A stretch of 64,000 nt of DNA from Rhizophagus irregularis (lineage: Eukaryota > Glomeromycota > Glomeromycetes > Glomerales > Glomeraceae): NCBI RefSeq assembly GCF_026210795.1, contig NC_089437.1, forward strand, positions 1,550,001 through 1,614,000, in the 5' to 3' direction. The translations under genes were made by a program, and so were the position numbers. Shown here one piece after another: positions 6,954 through 64,000 of the stretch (position 1 is the first letter of the stretch; the number at the start of each line of letters is the position of its first letter). The notes under the pieces are model-generated. The model made no database searches. It saw nothing but the letters and a program-made list of their open reading frames with translations, and was not told the DNA's origin.

Positions 6954-9900
6954 ATGGATCAATGTATTGATAAAGGTAATCATACAGCATAAATATATAA
7001 TATAAAATTAGAATTACCCTGTCAAAATTTTAAACAATTTTGCAAATATAAACTAACTATATTGTATAAAAATTATATTAAATAAATTAATGAAATTAAT
7101 TATTATTTTTATTATATTCTATTGTAACCAAATAATTTATTAATGATTAATAATACTAGTTAGTAAGTTATCAGTTATTTAAATTTTTAGTTTTTTTACT
7201 TTATTATTTTATTTATTTTACATAATATTCAAATTACTGAATTCTTTGTTTAAATAACTATTTAATAATTAATTATATTACAGATGGTAAGTTACAATAT
7301 ATATATTAGTATATTTATTTGTTTAATATTTTACATAATTTAACTAATTATATTTTTAATTTAAATAATTAGATTGTAAGTGAATACATTAATTTACTAT
7401 AGTAAATACTTTTCTGTTATATCTAACTAATTAATAATTGATAAACCAACTAAATTTTTATTTAAAAAATTATTTAATAATATAGGGGGTAAGTTATTTC
7501 TTTAATCCTATTATTGCTTATTTATAGTATATTTACATATTATTTAAACTAATTAAATTCTTTATTTAAAATTTATTTTGTAATTTTTTTTAGTTTGTAA
7601 GTTATAAGTTATTTATTTAATTCTATTATTACTTATTTATGTAATATTTACATATAATTTAAACTAACTAAATTCTTTATTTAAAAAATTATTTAATAAT
7701 ATAGGGTGTAAGTTATTTATTTAATCCTATTATTATCTAGTATTAATATAATATATACATATAATTAAACTAACTAATTTCTTTATTTAAAAAATTATTT
7801 AATAATATAGTGCGTAAGTTATTTACTTAATTCTATTATTTATATAATATTTACATATAATTTAAACTAGTAACTAAATTCTTTATTTAAAAAATTATTT
7901 AATAATATAGGGAGTAAGTTATTTATTTAATTCTATTATTTATATAATATTTACATATAATTTAAACTAACTAAATTCTTTATTTAAAAAATTATTTAAT
8001 AATATAGGGTGTAAGTTATTTATTTAATTCTATTATTACTTATTTATATGATATTTACATATAATTTAAACTAACTAAATTCTTTATTTAAAAATTATTT
8101 ACTAATATAGGGTGTGTTATTTATTTAATTCTATTATTACTTATTTATATGATATTTACATATAATTTAAACTAACTAAATTCTTTATTTAAAAAATTAT
8201 TTAATAATATAGGGTGTAAGTTATTTATTTAATTCTATTATTACTTATTTATATGATATTTACATATAATTTAAACTAACTAAATTTCTTATTTAAAAAA
8301 TTATTTTATAATATAGTGTAAGTTATTTATTTAATTCCATTATTACTTATTTATATGATATTTACATATACGAAACTAACTAAATTTTATTTAAAATATT
8401 ATTTTATAATTTTTAGTTGGTAAAGCTTATAAGTTATTTATTTAATTTACGTTTATTTATATAATATTATTATTATAATTTAAACTAACTAAATTCTTTA
8501 TTTAAAATATTATTTAATACTATAGAGGGTAAGTTATTTATTTAATCATTGCTACTATTTATATGATATTTACATATAATTTAAACTAACTTAATTCTTT
8601 ATTTAAAAATTATTTTATAATTTCTTTAGATGGTAAAAAGTTATTTAATATCACGCATTTCTTAATTCTATTATTACTTACTTATATAATATTTACATAT
8701 AATTTAAACTAACTAAATTTTTATTTAAAATATTATTTTTATAATATAGGGTGTAAGTTATTTATTTAATTCCATTATTACTTATTTATAATATATTTAC
8801 ATATAATTTAAACTTAACTAAATTCTTTATTTAAAATATTATTTTATAATATAGGGTGTAAGTTACTTTATTTAATTCCATTATTACTTATTTATATGAT
8901 ATTTAACATATAATTTAAACTAACTAAATTCTTTATTTAAAATATTATTTTATAATTTCTCTTTTAGTTGGTAAGTTATAAGTTATTTATTTAATTTCTA
9001 TTATTTATATAATATTTACATATAATTTAAACTAACTAAATTCTTTATTTAAAATATTATTTTATAATATAGGGTGTAAGTTATTTATTTAATTCCATTA
9101 TTACTTATTTATATGATATTTACATATAATTTAAACTAACTAAATTCTTTATTTAAAATATTATTTTATAATTTCTTTTAGTTGGTAAGTTATAAGTTAT
9201 TTATTTAATTTATTATTTATATAATATTTACATATAATTTAAACTAACCAAATTCTTTATTTAAAATATTATTTAACAATTATAGAGGGTAAGTTATTTA
9301 TTTAATTCCATTATTACTTATTTATATGATATTTACATATAATTCTAACCTAACTTAATTCTTTATTTAAAAATTATTTTATAATTTCTTTTAGATGGTA
9401 AAAGTTATTTAATATTTATTTAATTATTATTACTTACTTATATAATATTTACATATAATTTAAACTAACTAAATTTTTATTTAAAATATTATTTTATAAT
9501 ATAGGGTGTAAGTTATTTATTTAATCTTACTATACTTATTTAAGATATTTACATATAATTTAAACTAATCCAAATTCTTTATTTAAAATATTATTTTATA
9601 ATTTCTTTTAGTTGGTAAGTTATAAGTTATTTATTTAATTCTATTATTTATATAATATTTACATATAATTTAAACTAACTAAATTCTTTATTTAAAATAT
9701 TATTTAATACTATAGAGGGTAAGTTATTTATTTAATTCCATTATTACTTATTTATATGATATTTACATATAATTTAAACTAACTTAATTCTTTATTTAAA
9801 AATTATTTTATAATTTCTTTTAGATGGTAAAAGTTATTTAATATTTATTTAATTCTATTATTACTTACTTATATAATATTTACATATAATTTAAACTAAC

Positions 9901-12900
9901 TAAATTCTTTATTTAAAATATTATTTTATAATATAGGGTGTAAGTTATTTATTTAATTCCATTATTACTTATTTATATGATATTTACATATAATTTAAAC
10001 TAACTAAATTCTTTATTTAAAATATTATTTTATAATTTCTTTTAGTTGAAGTTATAAGTTATTTATTTAATTCTATTATTTATATAATGTTTTATATATA
10101 ATTTAAACTAACTAAATTCTTTATTTAAAATATTATTTAATACTATAGAGGGTAAGTTATTTATTAATTCCATTATTACTTATTTATATGATATTTACAT
10201 ATAATTTAAACTAACTTAATTCTTTATTTAAAAATTATTTTATAATTTCTTTTAGATGGTAAAAGTTATTTAATATTTATTTAATTCTATTATTACTTAC
10301 TTATATAATATTTACATATAATTTAAACTAATCCAAATTATTTAAATAGATCGTAAGTTATAAATTATTTATTTAATTCCATTATTACTTATTTATATGA
10401 TATTTACATATAATTTAAACTAACTAAATTCTTTATTTAAAATATTATTTTATAATTTCTTTTAGTTGGTAAGTTATAAGTTATTTATTTAATTCCATTA
10501 TTACTTATTTATATGATATTTACATATAATTTAAACTAACTTAATTCTTTATTTAAAAATTATTTTATAATTTCTTTTAGATGGTAAAAGTTATTTAATA
10601 TTTATTTAATTCTATTATTACTTATTTATATAATATTTACATATAATTTAAACTAACTAAATTCTTTATTTAAAATATTATTTAATACTATAAGAGGGTA
10701 AGTTATTTATTGTTCTATTATTACTTATTTATATAATATTTACATATAATTTAAACTAACTAAATTCTTTATTTAAAAAATTATTTAATAATATAGGGCG
10801 TAAGTTATTTTTTTAATTCTATTATTTATATAATATTTACATATAATTTAAACTAACTAAATTATTTAAATAGATCGTAAGTTATAAGTTATTTATTTAA
10901 TTCTATTATTACTTATTTATATGATATCTTCATATAATTTAAACTAACTAAATTCTTTATTTAAAAAATTATTTAATAATATAGGGTGTAAGTTATTTAT
11001 TTAATTCTATTATTACTTATTTATATGATATTTACATATAATTTAAACTAACTAAATTCTTTATTTAAAAAATTATTTTATAATTTCTTTTAGTTGGTAA
11101 GTTATAAGTTATTTATTTAATTCTATTATTACTTATTTATATGATATTTACATAATTTAAACTAACTAAATTCTTTATTTAAAAAATTATTTTATAATTT
11201 CTTTTAGTTGGTAAGTTATAAGTTATTTATTTAATTCTATTGTTACTTATTTATATAATATTTACATATAATTTAAACTAACTAAATTCTTTATTTAAAA
11301 TATTATTTAATACTATAAGAGTGTAAGTTATTTATTTAGTTCTATTATTACTTATTTATATGATATTTACATATAATTTAAACTAACTAAATTCTTTATT
11401 TAAAAAATTATTTAATAATATAGGGCGTAAGTTATTTATTTAATTCTATTGTTTTTTATTTATATGATATTTACATATAATTTAAACTAACTAAATTCTT
11501 TATTTAAAAAATTATTTAATAATATAGGGCGTAAGTTATTTATTTAATTCTATTATTTATATAATATTTACATATAATTTAAACTAACTAAATTCTTTAT
11601 TTAAAAAATTATTTTATAATTTCTTTTAGTTGGTAAGTTATAAGTTATTTATTTAATTCTATTATTACTTATTTATATGATATTTACATATAATTTAAAC
11701 TAACTAAATTCTTTATTTAAAAAATTATTTAATAATATAGGGAGTAAGTTAATTATTTAATTCTATTGTTACTTATTTATATAATATCTTCATATAATTT
11801 AAACTAACTAAATTCGTTATTTAAAAAATTATTTAATAATATAGGGTGTAAGTTATTTATTTAATTCTATTATTTATATAATATTTACATATAATTTAAA
11901 CTAACTAAATTATTTAAATAGATCGTAAGTTATAAGTTATTTATTTAATTCTATTATTACTTATTTATATGATATTTACATATAATTTAAACTAACTAAA
12001 TTCTTTATTTAAAAAATTATTTAATAATATAGGGTGTAAGTTATTTATTTAATTCTATTATTACTTATTTATATAATATCTTCATATAATTTAAACTAAC
12101 TAAATTCTTTATTTAAAAAATTATTTTATAATTTCTTTTAGTTGGTAAGTTATAAGTTATTTATTTAATTCTATTATTACTTATTTATATGATATTTACA
12201 TATAATTTAAACTAACTAAATTCTTTATTTAAAAAATTATTTAATAATATAGGGAGTAAGTTAATTATTTAATTCTATTGTTACTTATTTATATAATATC
12301 TTCATATAATTTAAACTAACTAAATTCTTTATTTAAAAAATTATTTTATAATTTCTTTTAGTTGGTAAGTTATAAGTTATTTATTTAATTCTATTATTAC
12401 TTATTTATATGATATTTACATATAATTTAAACTAACTAAATTCTTTATTTAAAAAATTATTTAATAATATAGGGAGTAAGTTAATTATTTAATTCTATTG
12501 TTACTTATTTATATAATATCTTCATATAATTTAAACTAACTAAATTCGTTATTTAAAAAATTATTTAATAATATAGAGCGTAAGTTATTTATTTAATTCT
12601 ATTATTTATATAATATTTACATATAATTTAAACTAACTAAATTCTTTATTTAAAAAATTATTTTATAATTTCTTTTAGTTGGTAAGTTATAAGTTATTTA
12701 TTTAATTCTATTATTACTTATTTATATGATATTTACATATAATTTTACTAACTTAATTCTTTATTTAAAAATTATTTAATAATATAGGGTGTAAGTTATT
12801 TATTTAATTCTATTATTACTTATTTATATGATATTTGCATATAATTTAAACTAATTAAACTCTTTATTTAAAAAATTATTTAATAATATAGGGTGTAAGT

Positions 12901-14531
12901 TATTTATTTAATTCTATTATTTATATAATATTTACATATAATAAATTCTTTATTTAAAAAATTAATTTTATAATTTCTTTTAGTTGGTAAGTTATAAGTT
13001 ATTTATTTAATTCTATTATTACTTATTTATATAATATTTACATATAATTTAAACTAACTAAATTCTTTATTTATAAAAATTATCTAATAATATAGCTTGT
13101 AAGTTATTTGTTATTTCTATTGTCAAATATTTATTTGTTAATTGAATTTTTTCATATGAAATTTCTGTTATTTTAGTTGGTAAGTTGTGAAATATAGATT
13201 ATTATTATGTATGTTTGTACAAAAACTACGAAACTAAGACATATGTTATATTAAATTTCTATTAAATTTAGAGTAAGTGTTGATTTTAATCTTAAATTTT
13301 AGTGTAATTTTTGATATAAACTTCCATAATAATTTTAATTATTTAAATTTATAGGTTTGGAAAAAGTGGAAATGCAATTATAGATGATTTTATTTTGGAA
13401 AAAAAATTAAAATGGATACCTTATGATAAACTTAGAAATGTTGAATATTTTGATAAAGGAGGATTTGGTACTATATACAAAGCTATTTGGTTTTATGATG
13501 GTAAAGATAATGAAATAATTCTTAAATGTTATGATAATTTAAGTGAAAATTTAAATGAATTTTTAAACGAAGTATGATAATATATTATTTTCTTTTTAAT
13601 TTAAATTATAATTTATTTATACTAAAATATTATTATTATTTTATAGTGGAAATATCATGAAAGTTGTTTAAATTCAGATGATATTATTTATTTTTATGGG
13701 TTTACAAAAGATCCAGATACTTTGAAATATATGGCGGTAATGGATTATGCAAACAAAGGTAATTTAAGAGGAAACTTAACAAGAATAATTAAAAGTGATT
13801 GGAATCAAAAATTATATATGTTATATAAAATTATTTCTGGACTTAATTTTATACATAGCCAAGATCTTGTTCATTGTGATTTTCATGATGGTAATATTTT
13901 AAATCATAATGAGAGTAAAATTTATATTAGTGATTTAGGATTATGTAAACCTGTAAAATCATTTTTGAAAGAATATGATATTTGTGGTGTTATACCATTT
14001 ATGGCACCTGAAGTTTTAAGAGGCAAATCCTATACTCCAGCTAGTGATATGTATAGTTTTTCTATAATTATGTGGGAATTTACATCTGGGATACCACCAT
14101 TTAGTAATAGAGCACATGATTTTCAACTTAGTATAAGTATTTGCAAAGGTGAACGTCCTGAAATTATTGAAAATACTCCACAATGTTATGCAGACTTAAT
14201 GAAAAAATGTTGGAATGAAGATCCATTAAAAAGACCATCTACATCAGAAGTGAATGGTATTATTGAAGATTGGATTTTCCGTCCTTATAATGATGAAGTT
14301 AGTGAAGAAATAAAAAGCAACATTATGGAATTTATAAATGCACCAATTGAGCATAAAAATCTTGTTACTACTAAATCTCACCCTAAAGCATGTTATACAA
14401 GTCGCTTACTTGATTTTACTAGTAAACAATTGAATGAAATTCTTGAAAGTGAAGATTCACAAGCTAGTGTAAAAGTGAATGAAATGTCAGTAAGTAAAGA
14501 TTTAGATGATTGTATAGTTAATTTGAAGTAA
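6954..14531 (+). CDS. Protein kinase (TKL-like) with first exon split off by the micro-exon array
   Basis: First exon 6954-6975 (MDQCIDK, then one extra base), followed by the repeat array, then exons 13355-13571 and 13647-14531 (intron 13572-13646, phase 0). The kinase part shows the glycine loop (KGGFGTIYKA, near 13455), the lysine in ILKCYD, the catalytic loop HCDFHDGNIL (13872-13900; HCD instead of HRD), DLG for DFG, MAPEVL, and a C-terminal tail ACYTSRLLDFTSKQLNEI. Catalytic Asp, Asn and Lys are present, so activity is plausible. The first exon resembles the usual N-terminal CID/Cys motif of this fungal kinase family, and 13355 onward resembles the SGN...WIPY segment. No in-frame ATG exists between 13355 and the middle of the kinase domain, so a start must come from upstream, across the array. 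Joining 6975 directly to 13355 reads into TAG, so the array has to add 3n+1 bases. Exact mRNA is unknown. Confidence 0.7.
8968..10349 (+). repeat. Higher-order repeat of about 430 bp within the array
   Basis: The unit order GGT-TTG-AGG-ATG recurs: TTG at 9182, 9612 and 10046; AGG at 9286, 9716 and 10149; ATG at 9395, 9824 and 10256; GGT at 9073, 9505 and 9937. Spacing is 429-434 bp. Each micro-exon type keeps its own acceptor tail (GGT after AATATAG, TTG and ATG after TTTCTTTTAG, AGG after ATACTATAG), and in this block the ATG units use a GTAAAA donor. This shows amplification in blocks of four cassettes. Confidence 0.8.
12142..12578 (+). repeat. Second higher-order block, TTG-GGA pairs of about 220 bp
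   Basis: TTG at 12142 and 12362 and GGA at 12253 and 12473 repeat with a 220-bp period and nearly identical sequence, including the variant ATCTTCATA in every second unit. This is a more recent duplication than the four-unit block further left. Confidence 0.7.
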
Positions 14532-16460: not shown

Positions 16461-17930
16461 TTAAATATTTTCTTGAATCCATTCAAAATCTTCAAAAATA
16501 TTATCATTCGGAACACTATGATTATACATTTTAACAATTCCTTGTGTTTTATATTCTTCTATTAAATCAAAGTATTTGGCTCCAATTATTTTAGACACCC
16601 AATAAATATCTTGAATAGTTTGTAATAGCATAGAATGTTTGCCTATCCAATTATCAAGGAATAATTTTAAAGATTTTAATTTAGGTGTCTCATAAAAATA
16701 GAATTTAAATTTAAACAAATTAATTGGTGATGACCTAGTCAAAACTTCAAATAACAAATCCCAATTAAATTCATAGTCATTATTACTATCCCAAATATCA
16801 TTATCAACCAAAATGTATAATCCATTTAAATATTGACAATTATTTAATAAATTTTCTAATTCTAAAATATTCCGATTTCTAAACATTAGTTTAAGGTATG
16901 TAAGATTTGGACAACTTTGATAAATAACTTGAATAATTTTTTCATTATCAATCTCATTACGGAATATGTGATCAATACTTATTTCAATAAGATGTCCATT
17001 TGTATTATTAATTAGACTCGTTAATACCTTGATTAAGACATTTTTAGCTTTCAAAATTTGTAGGAATGGTAAAGATATATTCTTCAACTCTGACATTCTT
17101 TCAACATATTCACCACTTAATTCTAATCTATTTAAATTTACAAAAGATGAAAGGATATTTGTGGTAGGTTGTATATTTGTCTTAAAATGTAGTAGAGTAT
17201 TCGCATGTTTAACTAACGAATTTTCAAGAACCTTACAAAATATATCATTTTTAAAAAATTCCTTGGTTATCAAACAAACATTAAATAATTTTTTGGGACT
17301 TTCAATTAATTTATTAATTCCATAATTGTTATTATGCTTCTCAATAAGAAGTTCTAATTTTTTAACTGAATTGCATATTTCTGTTAATCCAATTAAAACA
17401 TTATCATTGATGCAAGTATTACAGCTGAGAAATTCAAGCTCTGAAAAACAGCGCTTGGCTCCAGGAAAAAGGTTTATTTGATAATCAAATTTTTTGGGTA
17501 TATATAGGTGTGTTAATCTTGTATTTTCATTAATAAAAAGACTAATTATTTCTTTTCTAAAATTTAAAAATACGTCAATATCATAAGGATCAATAATAAT
17601 AACGTTGATCATTTTATCCAAATCATTTATATTTAAATATCTACAAAAACTAATGTAATTAAATAAAGGTTTTTGATAAACAGTTGTCAAAAATTGAACC
17701 CCTTTATTCTTCAAATTACTTCTTGACTCATCTGACAAATGTGAAATGACAACATTTAATAGTATTAATAATAACTCTTCAATCAAATATTTCCAAGGAT
17801 TTTTCCATAAAATCGGAATGGTTATTTCACACCAAGTTTTATTAACTGGAAGGCATGAAAGAAAGGTTTTTTTATCATTTTGTAATTCTTTGAAAATAAG
17901 ATAAAGAATATCTCCATTTAATTTGAACAT
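16461..17930 (-). CDS. F-box-like protein with LRR-type C-terminal part
   Basis: 489 aa from the ATG at 17930. This start is chosen because the paralogue at 21076-22530 begins the same way (MFKLNGDILYL and MCKLNRDILYL); the longer open frame to 18005 only adds a low-complexity leader. Residues about 1-45 form the F-box-like helix pattern DILYLIFKEL...SCLPVNKTWCE...ILWKNPW. The rest carries irregular Leu/Ile/Asn-rich segments typical of degenerate leucine-rich repeats in these fungal F-box proteins. Family knowledge suggests an SCF ubiquitin-ligase adaptor that binds Skp1 through the N-terminus; the substrate is unknown. No introns are evident. It is one of a diverged duplicate pair on this strand. 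Confidence 0.75.
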   Translation of the reverse strand: MFKLNGDILYLIFKELQNDKKTFLSCLPVNKTWCEITIPILWKNPWKYLIEELLLILLNVVISHLSDESRSNLKNKGVQFLTTVYQKPLFNYISFCRYLNINDLDKMINVIIIDPYDIDVFLNFRKEIISLFINENTRLTHLYIPKKFDYQINLFPGAKRCFSELEFLSCNTCINDNVLIGLTEICNSVKKLELLIEKHNNNYGINKLIESPKKLFNVCLITKEFFKNDIFCKVLENSLVKHANTLLHFKTNIQPTTNILSSFVNLNRLELSGEYVERMSELKNISLPFLQILKAKNVLIKVLTSLINNTNGHLIEISIDHIFRNEIDNEKIIQVIYQSCPNLTYLKLMFRNRNILELENLLNNCQYLNGLYILVDNDIWDSNNDYEFNWDLLFEVLTRSSPINLFKFKFYFYETPKLKSLKLFLDNWIGKHSMLLQTIQDIYWVSKIIGAKYFDLIEEYKTQGIVKMYNHSVPNDNIFEDFEWIQENI

Positions 17931-18005
17931 TATTATTATTTTTTTTTTTAGGAAAAAAAAATGTACGTATAAAAAGTTTTTTGGGCTTTTGGCGCAAATG
18001 AGCAA

Positions 18006-18834
18006 ATAGTGACTATATTTATTTGTTTCATGTTGTACAGAAAGATCATAAAGACAAATGATCGACCATATTACGTGTCCAAAAAGATCTAAGTTTATTC
18101 AAAGTTATTTTGGAAGGAAATTTGGACATTTATAATTTAAATTTTAGAATGGTATTTTGGAAATTCAGTAATGCACGACTGAATCTGATAAACCAATTAC
18201 GATACAGTTGATCAAATTTCCAAAAATTCCGCAGGTGCCGGACCAATCCCTCCTCACCTCCCCCTCAAAAATTTTGGTTTCTTATAAAAAAATTTTTTTA
18301 TATAAATATTCCCCCTCATGGAAATCTATTTTTTTTTCCTTCCCCTCCCTCATAATTTCAAAATTTTAATAAAAAATTTTGTAAATTTATCTCTTTAAAA
18401 AATTTTAAACTTTATTAATATTGTATTAATATTGTAATTTTATGCTATATAATTTATTACAATGTAGACGTTTCTAGAACATCCGTCAAATAAAGTATCT
18501 ATCTAGTAAAACAAAAAACAAACAACTTACCCTTCCAGATATGTATAAAATTAATTAACCCAAAAATCAACAGCGAATCCCTAAAGAGCTTAATCTCTAT
18601 GCAGTGTTAAAGGTACCCAAATCGGATGTAAATAATATATTTAGCTATGAAACTAAACTCGATCCCTGCTTTATCATTCTAGTTCTAATTAAAACAATCT
18701 TGTCTATCTAAAACTAAAATTTTACTATGATTTGTTGAAACTTTATTGAACGTATTGAACGTCTATTCGCTATCGCGATTAATTTTAATTTATTTATTTT
18801 AATTTTATTTTTATAATTTGTACATAATAAGTTT
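18006..18834. other. Intergenic, low complexity
   Basis: Runs of C-rich and A/T homopolymer (18235-18360) and plain AT-rich sequence. It contains the upstream region of the F-box gene at 16461-17930. No supported gene. Confidence 0.5.
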
Positions 18835-21075: not shown

Positions 21076-22530
21076 TTAAATGTTTTCTTGAAGCCATTCA
21101 AAATCTTCAAAAGTACTTTCATTTAGAACATGATTATACTTTTTAACAATTCCTTGCATTTTGTATTCTTCCATTAACTCAAAATATTTCATTCCAATTT
21201 CAAGACCAAGTCCCCAACTATTATCTTGAATTGTTTGTAATAATATAGAACGTCTACCTTTCCAATTATCAAGAAATAATTTTAAAGATTCTAATTTTGG
21301 TGCTTCATAAAAATAGAATTTGAACTTAAACAAATTAGGTGAAGATGAACTAACCAAAATTTCAAATAGGTAGTCCCAATTAAATACCATGTCACCATCA
21401 ACCCAATAAGTTGTATTATCAATAATAATATATAAACCATTTAAATTTTTACAATTAATCAATAATTTTTTTAATTCTAAAATATTTTTGTTTTTAAACA
21501 TTAGTTTAAGATATTTGAGATTTGAACATTTTCTATAAATAATTTGAATAATTTTTTCATTATCAATATCATTATGAAGTACACAATCAATTTTTATCTC
21601 AGTAAGACCCCCATTTGTATTTTCAATTAAATTTGTTAAAGCTTTGATTGGGATTCCTTTAGCTTTTAAGATTTGTAAGAAAGGTAGAGAAACATTTTTT
21701 AAACAATTCCATGACATTCTTTCAACAGGATTGCCACCCAATTCTAATCTATTTAAATTTACTAATGATGAGAGAATGCTTGTAGCAGGTTGCTTAATTA
21801 TCTTAAAATTTTGTATAGTATCTGCATGTTTGATCAACGAATTTTCAAGACTTCTACAAAATGATTCATCACTATTTAAAGATCTCTTGGTTAACAAACG
21901 TACATTATATAATTTTTTAAGACTCTCAACAAGTTTAATAATTCCATAATTGTTATTATCCTTTTCAATAAATAGTTCTAATTCTTTAATTGATTTACAT
22001 ATTTCTGTTAATTCGGACAAGACGCTATCATTAATACAAGCATTACAGCTTAGAAATTCAAGATCTGAAAAGCAGTGTTTTGCCCCAGAAATAAGGTTTA
22101 TTTGATAATCAAATTGATAAGGTATATAAAGATGTGTTAATCTTGTATTTTCGTTGATAAAAAGACCAAATATTTCTTTTCTAATAGTTGAATAATCATC
22201 AACATCATCAAGTTCAATAGTATCGATTATTTCATTTAAATTATTTATATTTAAATGTCTACAAAATCTAATATAATTAAAAAAAGGTTTTTGATAATTT
22301 ATCAAATAATTAATTGATAAACTATTTCTTGACTCATCTGATAAATGTGAAATGATGACGTTTAATAGTAATTTTTTCCCTTTTAAGAATTTCCAAGGAT
22401 TCTTCCATAAAATTGGAACGGTTGTTTCACACCAAATTTTATTAACTGTAAGGCATGAAATAAGAGTTTTCTTATCATCTTGTAATTCTTTGAAAATTAA
22501 GTAAAGAATATCCCTGTTTAATTTGCACAT
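21076..22530 (-). CDS. F-box-like protein, paralogue of 16461-17930
   Basis: 484 aa from the ATG at 22530 (MCKLNRDILYLIFKEL), chosen by alignment with the neighbouring paralogue; the in-frame ATG at 22569 would add 13 residues not shared with it. The F-box-like segment covers about residues 1-45, with the same SCL.VNK.WCE..VPILWKNPW pattern, followed by LRR-like sequence that aligns along the whole length with the other copy, including matching C-termini (FEDFEWIQENI and FEDFEWLQENI). The role inferred from the family is SCF substrate adaptor, target unknown. No frameshifts were seen, so both copies look functional and have diverged for some time. Confidence 0.75.
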   Translation of the reverse strand: MCKLNRDILYLIFKELQDDKKTLISCLTVNKIWCETTVPILWKNPWKFLKGKKLLLNVIISHLSDESRNSLSINYLINYQKPFFNYIRFCRHLNINNLNEIIDTIELDDVDDYSTIRKEIFGLFINENTRLTHLYIPYQFDYQINLISGAKHCFSDLEFLSCNACINDSVLSELTEICKSIKELELFIEKDNNNYGIIKLVESLKKLYNVRLLTKRSLNSDESFCRSLENSLIKHADTIQNFKIIKQPATSILSSLVNLNRLELGGNPVERMSWNCLKNVSLPFLQILKAKGIPIKALTNLIENTNGGLTEIKIDCVLHNDIDNEKIIQIIYRKCSNLKYLKLMFKNKNILELKKLLINCKNLNGLYIIIDNTTYWVDGDMVFNWDYLFEILVSSSSPNLFKFKFYFYEAPKLESLKLFLDNWKGRRSILLQTIQDNSWGLGLEIGMKYFELMEEYKMQGIVKKYNHVLNESTFEDFEWLQENI

Positions 22531-22569
22531 GGTTAAGATTGTTGGCGTAAAATCGTTCAAATGACTCAA

Positions 22570-23059
22570 TATTTATAATATTTATATCATGCATGTCGCA
22601 GATTGTCACACGACCCCTGACAACACGCTATTGTACCACATATCGTACTTTTGTGATCGTGATATCACGTGACAGTAATAGAAGATAAAATAATTTTTAA
22701 ATTATTTTTCAATTTAAAATGCTTAAAAATAAAAAAAAAATTTAAAATCTAAATTAAAAAATTAAGTAGTTGGAATAAGTGGATTTACTACTCATTAAAA
22801 AACTCTCATTTTTTATTTTTGAGCGTGTCTCGATACGTAAACCACGCATTTTGTTAAACGTTCGAGAAATATTCTAGTATCTTTTTGAAAGTGTCTCGAT
22901 TATTTTGTCCTGTTACTATTGATGAACAGTAATAATGAGTAAATAAGTCTGTTCCAGGATACGAGAGGAATTAGATACTACTATTCTAGTTTATCTATTG
23001 TTACGCAGTAAAATGTTGCGCAGCAATCATGTGATATAACTGGACCCGTGATGCCGATC
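22570..23059. other. Intergenic upstream region of the F-box gene
   Basis: AT-rich with scattered CACGTGA/TCACGTG-like and CTCGA words. No gene supported. Confidence 0.4.
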
Positions 23060-63185: not shown

Positions 63186-64000
63186 TAGGGATTGGAACCG
63201 TCAAAAAAAAGCTTAACCGGTTAATAACCGGTTAATTAAAGCGTCTAACCGGTTAATAGTCGGTTAATTAATCGGTTAATTAACCGGTTAATTTGTAATG
63301 AGGCTAACCGGTTAATAACCGGTTAATATATAAATTTTATATTTTAACGTGTGTTTAGAGGCCTATTTTTTGTATTTTAACGCGCGTTTAAAGATAAATT
63401 TTTGTGTTTTTAACTAAATAGTATTATAATATTTATATTAAAATGTATACATTAGTAAAAAATTACATACAGTATATTGTAATTACTTACTACCCAGTCA
63501 TGCAGTGGTCACCGGTATCAGCACTAAGTTGAAAAGTTTTTTAATTATATTTTTAGTTCTATCCGAAATTCCATTCCAATTCTGATGGCCACTGTAGTAT
63601 TCAAATTTTTGCATTTTTTCTTATTTAAAATACTATACCCGATCATATGCTGATTTCTGCATAAATCAAGGTTATAACTTTAGAATATTTTAACATAAAT
63701 AATGTTAAATTATAAATATCATATGCAATATATTATATTAAAATATAAGATTGCAGGTTTATCATCGAATCTATTAGGGTGGGCAAAATTAAAGTTAATG
63801 CTAGTAAAGTTAAAGTTAGAAGTTGGCTAGGAATTACTAATTTAGGATGATCTGTATTTTAACCGGTTAAGTTAGCCGGTTAATTAGTCGGTTAATTTAA
63901 CCGGTTAAATTAACCGGTTAACCGTTTTTTGAGAGGTCTTAACCGGTTAACCGCCTTAACCGGTTAATTAACCGGTTAACCTTAACCGGTTCCAATCCCT
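63186..64000. mobile_element. hAT-like MITE with CCGGTTAA subterminal repeats (reaches window end)
   Basis: The left end TAGGGATTGGAACCG (63186) is matched at the right end, read inverted, by AGGGATTGGAACCGG (to 64000). Such ends resemble hAT termini. Dense TTAACCGGTTAA-type palindromes occupy 63210-63330 and 63859-63990, leaving an AT-rich centre with no ORF. The right target duplication lies outside the window, so the 8-bp duplication cannot be checked. Confidence 0.7.

Follow-up and report, generated by a model that had tools for sequence, protein, structure and literature searches.

Genes composed largely of very small exons are known from Schistosoma, in which, as set out in one account (PMC10526429), the exons of the micro-exon genes (MEGs) measure 6-81 bp according to the text and 3-81 bp according to the abstract, are mostly 15 bp long and number 10-20 per gene; the introns are 0.1-5 kb, the products are secreted, and variants arise by alternative splicing. 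Micro-exon splicing has been demonstrated in plants for Arabidopsis APC11 (PMC4674806). The WD repeats of Podospora HNWD are described in PMC4986451 as highly conserved and length-polymorphic, subject to concerted evolution and with a few codons under diversifying selection, and PMC4457414 presents introner-like elements as introns that have multiplied in fungal genomes. Here we describe a kinase gene of Rhizophagus irregularis in which a tandem array of 57 candidate exons, each of three nucleotides, precedes the kinase exons. The gene lies in a stretch of 64,000 nucleotides (C9:1550001-1614000, hereafter the window) of the 146,748,485-base, 32-contig genome of one strain, and belongs to a large family of paralogues that carry comparable arrays.

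The sequence makes it highly probable that the array is coding and provides the kinase gene with a variable segment, one codon per exon, in which all triplets are joined in order. We infer that the triplets are spliced and translated in the following way. Each unit would comprise an intron of ~95 nt and a 3-nt exon, and the introns would be removed singly, probably by intron definition. Each codon would then be read as Z|XY, in which the last base of one triplet is followed by the first two bases of the next (phase 1), and a 1-nt exon would subsequently set the frame for the kinase exons. The resulting kinase would carry, after a short leader, a variable segment of ~10 to 80 residues, followed by its kinase domain. 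The segment would grow, shrink and be rearranged through duplication and recombination within the near-identical introns, events that would leave the frame intact since each exon has the length of one codon. Compared with the introns, the codons would diversify far more rapidly.

The architecture of the window locus, which is on the plus strand, is read directly from the sequence. Exon 1 (6954..6975) begins with an ATG, is 22 nt long, ends in phase 1 (MDQCIDK plus a G) and is followed by the donor GTAATC. The array of 3-nt exons and short introns, also apparent as tandem repeat rows, occupies 7160..13179, with its first triplet at 7160-7162 and its last at 13177-13179. The original prediction had placed 57 triplets between an acceptor and a donor, and every one was found where it had been placed: AG precedes all of them, and GT follows all except that at 10046. 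A strict rule (T/C-AG, 3 nt, GTAA[G/A]) is passed by 53 of these triplets, and the array region contains in addition two 1-nt spacings, T at 8317 and A at 13272. The four atypical triplets are the GGT at 8111..8113, which has a weak donor (gtgtta), the TTG at 10046..10048, which has lost its donor (aagtta follows), and those at 10695 and 11320, which have an AAG acceptor. The two departures from 3-nt spacing had been treated as exceptions, and both are indeed 1 nt long, but the A at 13272 proves to be a 1-nt exon common to most paralogues. The T at 8317 looks like a decayed unit in which a single nucleotide remains between acceptor and donor, and it was omitted from the open model because its inclusion would shift the frame. 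Downstream, the first kinase exon (13355..13571) spans FGKSGN up to where the kinase domain begins and is supported by its open frame and by matches elsewhere in the genome, and the second (13647..14531), supported by its open reading frame and Pfam matches, contains the stop codon.

The paralogue family is extensive. At E<=1e-6 the first kinase exon has at least 151 matches in the genome (150 of the 3,452 first-look candidates were scored), and 38 of 40 loci chosen by kinase similarity have at least five units (20/20 in the first set and 18/20 in the replication set). All four arrays examined away from the listed kinase matches end in a 1-nt exon and a kinase exon. The sample analyzed below consists of 43 arrays containing 1,230 triplets, namely the window, these 38 loci and four pattern-found loci, with the largest unit cluster alone retained at each; L003, where two 3-nt units pass the strict rule, and L006, where a single triplet lies isolated in the vicinity of other genes, stand outside it. 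Detected units range from 9 to 79 per array, their number differing among the paralogues of this one genome, and the longest array read has 79 over 10.5 kb. The ends of the arrays are recurrent: 28 of the 43 arrays contain ATT-GGT among their first six units, and 28 finish with CTT-TTG or CTT-TTA. Exons and introns are also repeated together in higher-order blocks, as in the GGT TTG AGG ATG repeat of the window and a repeated exon-plus-intron block in L023.

The 3-nt spacing is not due to chance, either in the array or genome-wide. Within the 43 arrays, 1,151 of the 1,178 GTAAGT donors are separated from the nearest preceding YAG by exactly 3 nt, the remainder comprising 21 that lie at least 20 nt away and six at distances of 0, 1, 6 or 7 nt. 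Across the genome the pattern TAG-Nx-GTAAGT, with its nine fixed bases, occurs 6,435 times at N3, compared with 1,025 at N1, 1,055 at N2, 881 at N4, 972 at N5 and 878 at N6; at N0 (TAG|GTAAGT) the count is 1,620 and its control 4,667. A reversed-pattern control (N1 2,164; N2 1,974; N3 1,477; N4 2,229; N5 1,867; N6 1,480) is a poor yardstick because it exceeds the observed count at every spacing other than N3. We took the counts of the other spacings as the background for N3, and by simple arithmetic estimate an excess of ~5,500 triplets genome-wide.

Among the possible reading phases of the triplets, phase 1 stands apart. Pooled over the sample, none of 1,063 adjacent junctions forms a stop codon in phase 1, whereas 2,000 shuffles gave a mean of 30.3 and a minimum of 17. 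The first 25 arrays contribute 0/622 (shuffle mean 14.1), compared with 13/622 when their order is reversed, and when identical junctions within an array are collapsed to one, this set still gives 0/510, a level reached by none of 5,000 shuffles. The same rule applied to the 18 replication arrays gave 0/441 (shuffle mean 16.1), and a further 79-unit array gave 0/64. Phases 0 and 2 would not be the phases read, because stops occur there: in phase 0, 7 of the 1,230 triplets spell a stop codon, and in phase 2, 143 of the 1,063 junctions do (shuffle mean 120.1). As a separate observation, the XY doublet is AT, TT, GG or CT in 1,005 of the 1,230 triplets of the 43 arrays (82%), and with these doublets no preceding base can complete a stop. 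They may be a safeguard for shuffling or may reflect the ancestry of the founding units.

The two ends of the array agree with this phase. Exon 1 was sought upstream of the first unit with a gapless 26-base template, and in each of the 22 of 43 loci in which it was found, the window included, it ends in phase 1; matches in L021 and L038 were spurious. The 22 leader peptides include three that begin MGQC, one MGQS, four MDQC, six MALS and three MAHS. N-myristoylation was considered as a general feature and rejected, given this mixture of starts. At the opposite end, a shift from phase 1 to phase 2 is required on entry into the kinase exon; 66-86 nt upstream lies a 1-nt exon that supplies it, restoring the frame. 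Its base is mostly A (T in L012), and in the replication set it is present near the array end in 18 of 20 loci and is always A. The codon joined across it could be parsed in 31 of the 43 loci and is GAA in 27, AAA in two, GAG in one and TTA in one. The 12 loci left out are eight whose kinase start was missed by the search expression (L004, L005, L027, L038, L040, L041, L043, L045), L002, removed by the distance filter, and three without a 1-nt exon, to which we return below. The terminal signature of a TTR triplet, an intron and a 1-nt A has 113 exact copies genome-wide (control 0).

Joining all 57 triplets and the A in the window produces a model that is open from the ATG to the stop, encoding 431 residues beginning MDQCIDKVNDWVWLRRWWFEDGWFGFEDGFEDGFEDDLDEG. 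In six of seven other hand-picked loci (L007, L009, L026, L027, L032, L036) the frame likewise stays open from the ATG on into the initial portion of the kinase exon; no exon 2 was included in the L032 and L036 models, and those of L009, L026 and L032 contain gaps at which a unit has perhaps been missed (largest spacing 183, 455 and 197, respectively). The second kinase exon matches Pfam PF00069 (E 7.5e-35) and PF07714 (E 1.3e-34), and in the joined model the PF07714 match strengthens to E 5.2e-41 over residues 97-339; the first kinase exon alone has no Pfam match. The variable segment, tried in two models, matched no Pfam family at E<0.05 (best E 0.079, on L027). Taken with the paralogues, the stop-free phase, exon 1, the 1-nt exon and the open 431-codon model favor the original prediction that the triplets act as 3-nt exons that each add one codon, with the amendment that the codons straddle triplets rather than coincide with them.

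The triplets vary far more than the introns. Between neighboring units (at most 135 bases apart; one overlapping pair in L035 was dropped, leaving 1,062) the introns are 63-129 nt long, with a median of 95 and a composition of 88% A+T, and 780 contain a CTAA[C/T] branch motif. Their lengths modulo 3 are distributed 341/343/378, so that the triplet alone is constrained in length. Unit pairs from different arrays share identical or nearly identical introns, and this allowed us to compare inner triplets (omitting the first five and last two of each array) that are flanked by 60 identical intron bases, 30 per side with splice-signal bases excluded. The per-site difference between such triplets is 0.398 for pairs from different arrays (n = 114) and 0.138 for pairs from the same array (n = 111). 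In six intron control windows the corresponding values between arrays are 0-0.16, or 0.002-0.064 when the highest, near the branch region, is set aside, and those within arrays are 0.003-0.046; 9 of the 12 control values are below 0.03. When two flank differences are allowed, the exon value is 0.420 as against 0.020-0.104 in eleven control windows, an exon/intron-window ratio of 6.3 (3.2-10.3 on bootstrapping over arrays). Among the 225 identical-flank pairs, the last triplet base alone has changed in 20%, the first alone in 11%, the middle alone in none, and the first and middle together in 13%. The middle base is the third codon position in phase 1, and the changes thus fall mostly at first and second codon positions. 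The last base is evenly used (A235, C234, G233, T227 in 929 inner triplets), and the residues R, F, D, W, N, L, Y and H are abundant in the variable segment. This pattern of hypervariability looks like diversifying selection.

These observations bear on several other accounts of the array. A tandem repeat might be a non-coding intronic minisatellite, removed as one block or lying outside the transcript, since duplication copies any spacing and would pass on a 3-nt one with the unit; yet stops would then not be expected to vanish solely in forward adjacent order, the last triplet base would not be so evenly used amid A+T-rich introns, and changes would not be concentrated in the triplet. The agreement of the phase with exon 1 and the 1-nt exon, and the conservation of the start and end triplets over many loci, also argue against such a repeat, which we regard as very improbable; on the stop-free phase, base use and phase agreement we reject removal of the array as a single non-coding block. 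The near adjacency of acceptors and donors is also reminiscent of recursive (ratchet) splicing, in which such pairs are steps in the removal of a long intron. At ratchet points, however, the acceptor directly adjoins the donor and no bases are retained, an arrangement found at 2 of 1,178 donors inside the arrays, where the retained triplets behave as codons; two tandem TAG|GTAAGT runs read on C1 belong to another repeat. We give this account the least credence of all. More serious is the original suggestion that cells include differing subsets of triplets as cassettes, so that a single gene would yield many variants. Skipping would preserve the frame, as almost all units are 3 nt long, and 52 of the 57 single skips in the window introduce no stop within the first 70 residues. 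But selected skip forms should deplete stops between units that are not neighbors, and they are not depleted: units one apart (lag 2) give 37 stops in 920 (shuffle mean 26.7; 1,987 of 2,000 shuffles as low or lower), and are if anything enriched, and units two apart (lag 3) give 28 in 799 (shuffle mean 23.7). An absence of stops that is confined to lag 1 favors complete, ordered inclusion, and the variation that is seen lies between genes, in the DNA. Cassette choice thus appears distinctly unlikely as the source of variants, although individual units may at times be skipped.

A further proposal concerns origin and is compatible with ordered inclusion of coding triplets: introner-like copies may have invaded a normal exon and cut it at each codon, in which case the codons would have inherited their diversity from that exon and the introns would be of recent origin. 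Near-identical introns that flank unrelated triplets would be explained in this way, as would the frequent joint change of the first two triplet bases. The range of unit numbers and the higher-order exon-plus-intron repeats in the window and L023 instead indicate tandem duplication, and we consider invasion rather unlikely. A possible function for the coding array, which we advance tentatively, is diversification by codon shuffling. The segment would form a recognition strip, or docking surface, in a kinase set as large as the 113 terminal signatures suggest; the introns would serve as recombination tracts through which units are gained, lost and reordered at no risk to the frame, selection would favor diversity at first and second codon positions, and the outcome might be a repertoire with which this multinucleate arbuscular mycorrhizal fungus recognizes partners or tells self from non-self.

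Several observations weigh against a coding array that is included in full. In the window copy, three units (8111, 8317 and 10046) are damaged, and omitting 8111 and 10046 from its model creates a stop at a GGT/AGG junction, so this copy may be impaired or decaying, or misassembled there. The L010 model is not open with exon 2 as called, L011, L014 and L024 have no visible 1-nt exon, and no exon 1 was located in 21 of the 43 loci, where the upstream sequence was shorter than 400 bases in 13 and at least 880 bases in eight. Two of the 20 replication loci have fewer than five units (L042 with three, L046 with two). Phase separation is poor in the 79-unit array, with only 2/64 phase-2 stops, and the CTAA[C/T] motif is missing from 282 of the 1,062 introns. 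The pairs behind the hypervariability estimate are non-independent, and recombination can imitate selection; the joint change of the first two triplet bases is not readily explained by single mutations and suggests block exchange as well. Finally, when the joined 3' end was sought as a contiguous retrocopy, none was recognized: no match was exact or had a single mismatch, and of the 92 with two or three mismatches (control 33) many are native acceptor sites of the family.

Some other features were seen in passing. L003 (C1:1936000-1940500) is an array fragment with its two strict units and degraded ones, in which no kinase exon was seen by eye, and further along is a minisatellite with GCGCATGTTAC motifs. 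In L004 (C1:2289500-2296000) the kinase exon is split by an insert of several hundred bases with ACAAGTGGA on both sides, and this insertion probably makes the copy non-functional. A different tandem repeat of ~95 bp, composed of TATAG, a 25-26 nt segment GGAATCGGTATAACGAATCCCATAG and GTAAGT, is present in L053 (1-760; C1:2916600-2917600) and L054 (C1:2810700-2811300), and could be an array of candidate 25/26-nt exons or a look-alike satellite. Elsewhere in the window, two similar long open frames on the minus strand (16461-18098 and 21076-22572) have the common start LNxDILYLIFKELQxDKKT and look like F-box/leucine-rich paralogues, and tandem palindromic TTAACCGGTTAA repeats occupy 63213-63991 at the window end.

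If the coding interpretation is correct, a single genome would contain several thousand 3-nt exons, and each transcript would test how the spliceosome handles dozens of consecutive 3-nt exons followed by a 1-nt exon. The introns would be a homologous backbone for codon-by-codon diversification of a protein. It would also follow that the N-terminal region of a large kinase family in a key plant symbiont has probably been mis-annotated, as exons of 3 nt are missed by standard aligners. In Manley et al. 2023 (PMC10234402), long reads from R. irregularis DAOM197198 were mapped with a maximum intron of 3,000, a setting under which reads spanning longer arrays would be cut if the triplets were left unaligned. 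Among the matches listed in our literature search, the scope of which lay outside bioRxiv and most subscription journals, there was no description of such arrays in Rhizophagus or elsewhere.

Each of the known systems resembles the Rhizophagus arrays in some respects. Introner-like elements share the occurrence of near-identical introns in many places, but here these introns are tandem and precede one kinase family; among the arrays sampled, none pointed to dispersal into unrelated genes. Isolated micro-exons such as those of Arabidopsis APC11 and Drosophila homothorax match in their sizes of 1 and 3 nt, whereas in Rhizophagus there are dozens in tandem per gene together with a 1-nt exon as a frame adapter. 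Like the HNWD repeats, the arrays have a conserved repeat backbone with hypervariable codons; in HNWD, however, the conserved part is protein and the receptor is an NLR, while in the Rhizophagus kinase gene the conserved part is intron and the variable codon alone would be coding. The Schistosoma MEGs likewise consist for the most part of tiny exons, whose lengths are usually multiples of three, and have a variable product, and the many tiny symmetric exons of the MEG type are represented here by the 1,230 triplets of the 43 arrays. They differ in that the Rhizophagus exons are nearly all 3 nt long, with 9 to 79 detected per array, belong to kinase genes and appear to be included consecutively, and in that the long introns of the MEGs are replaced by near-identical introns of ~95 nt.

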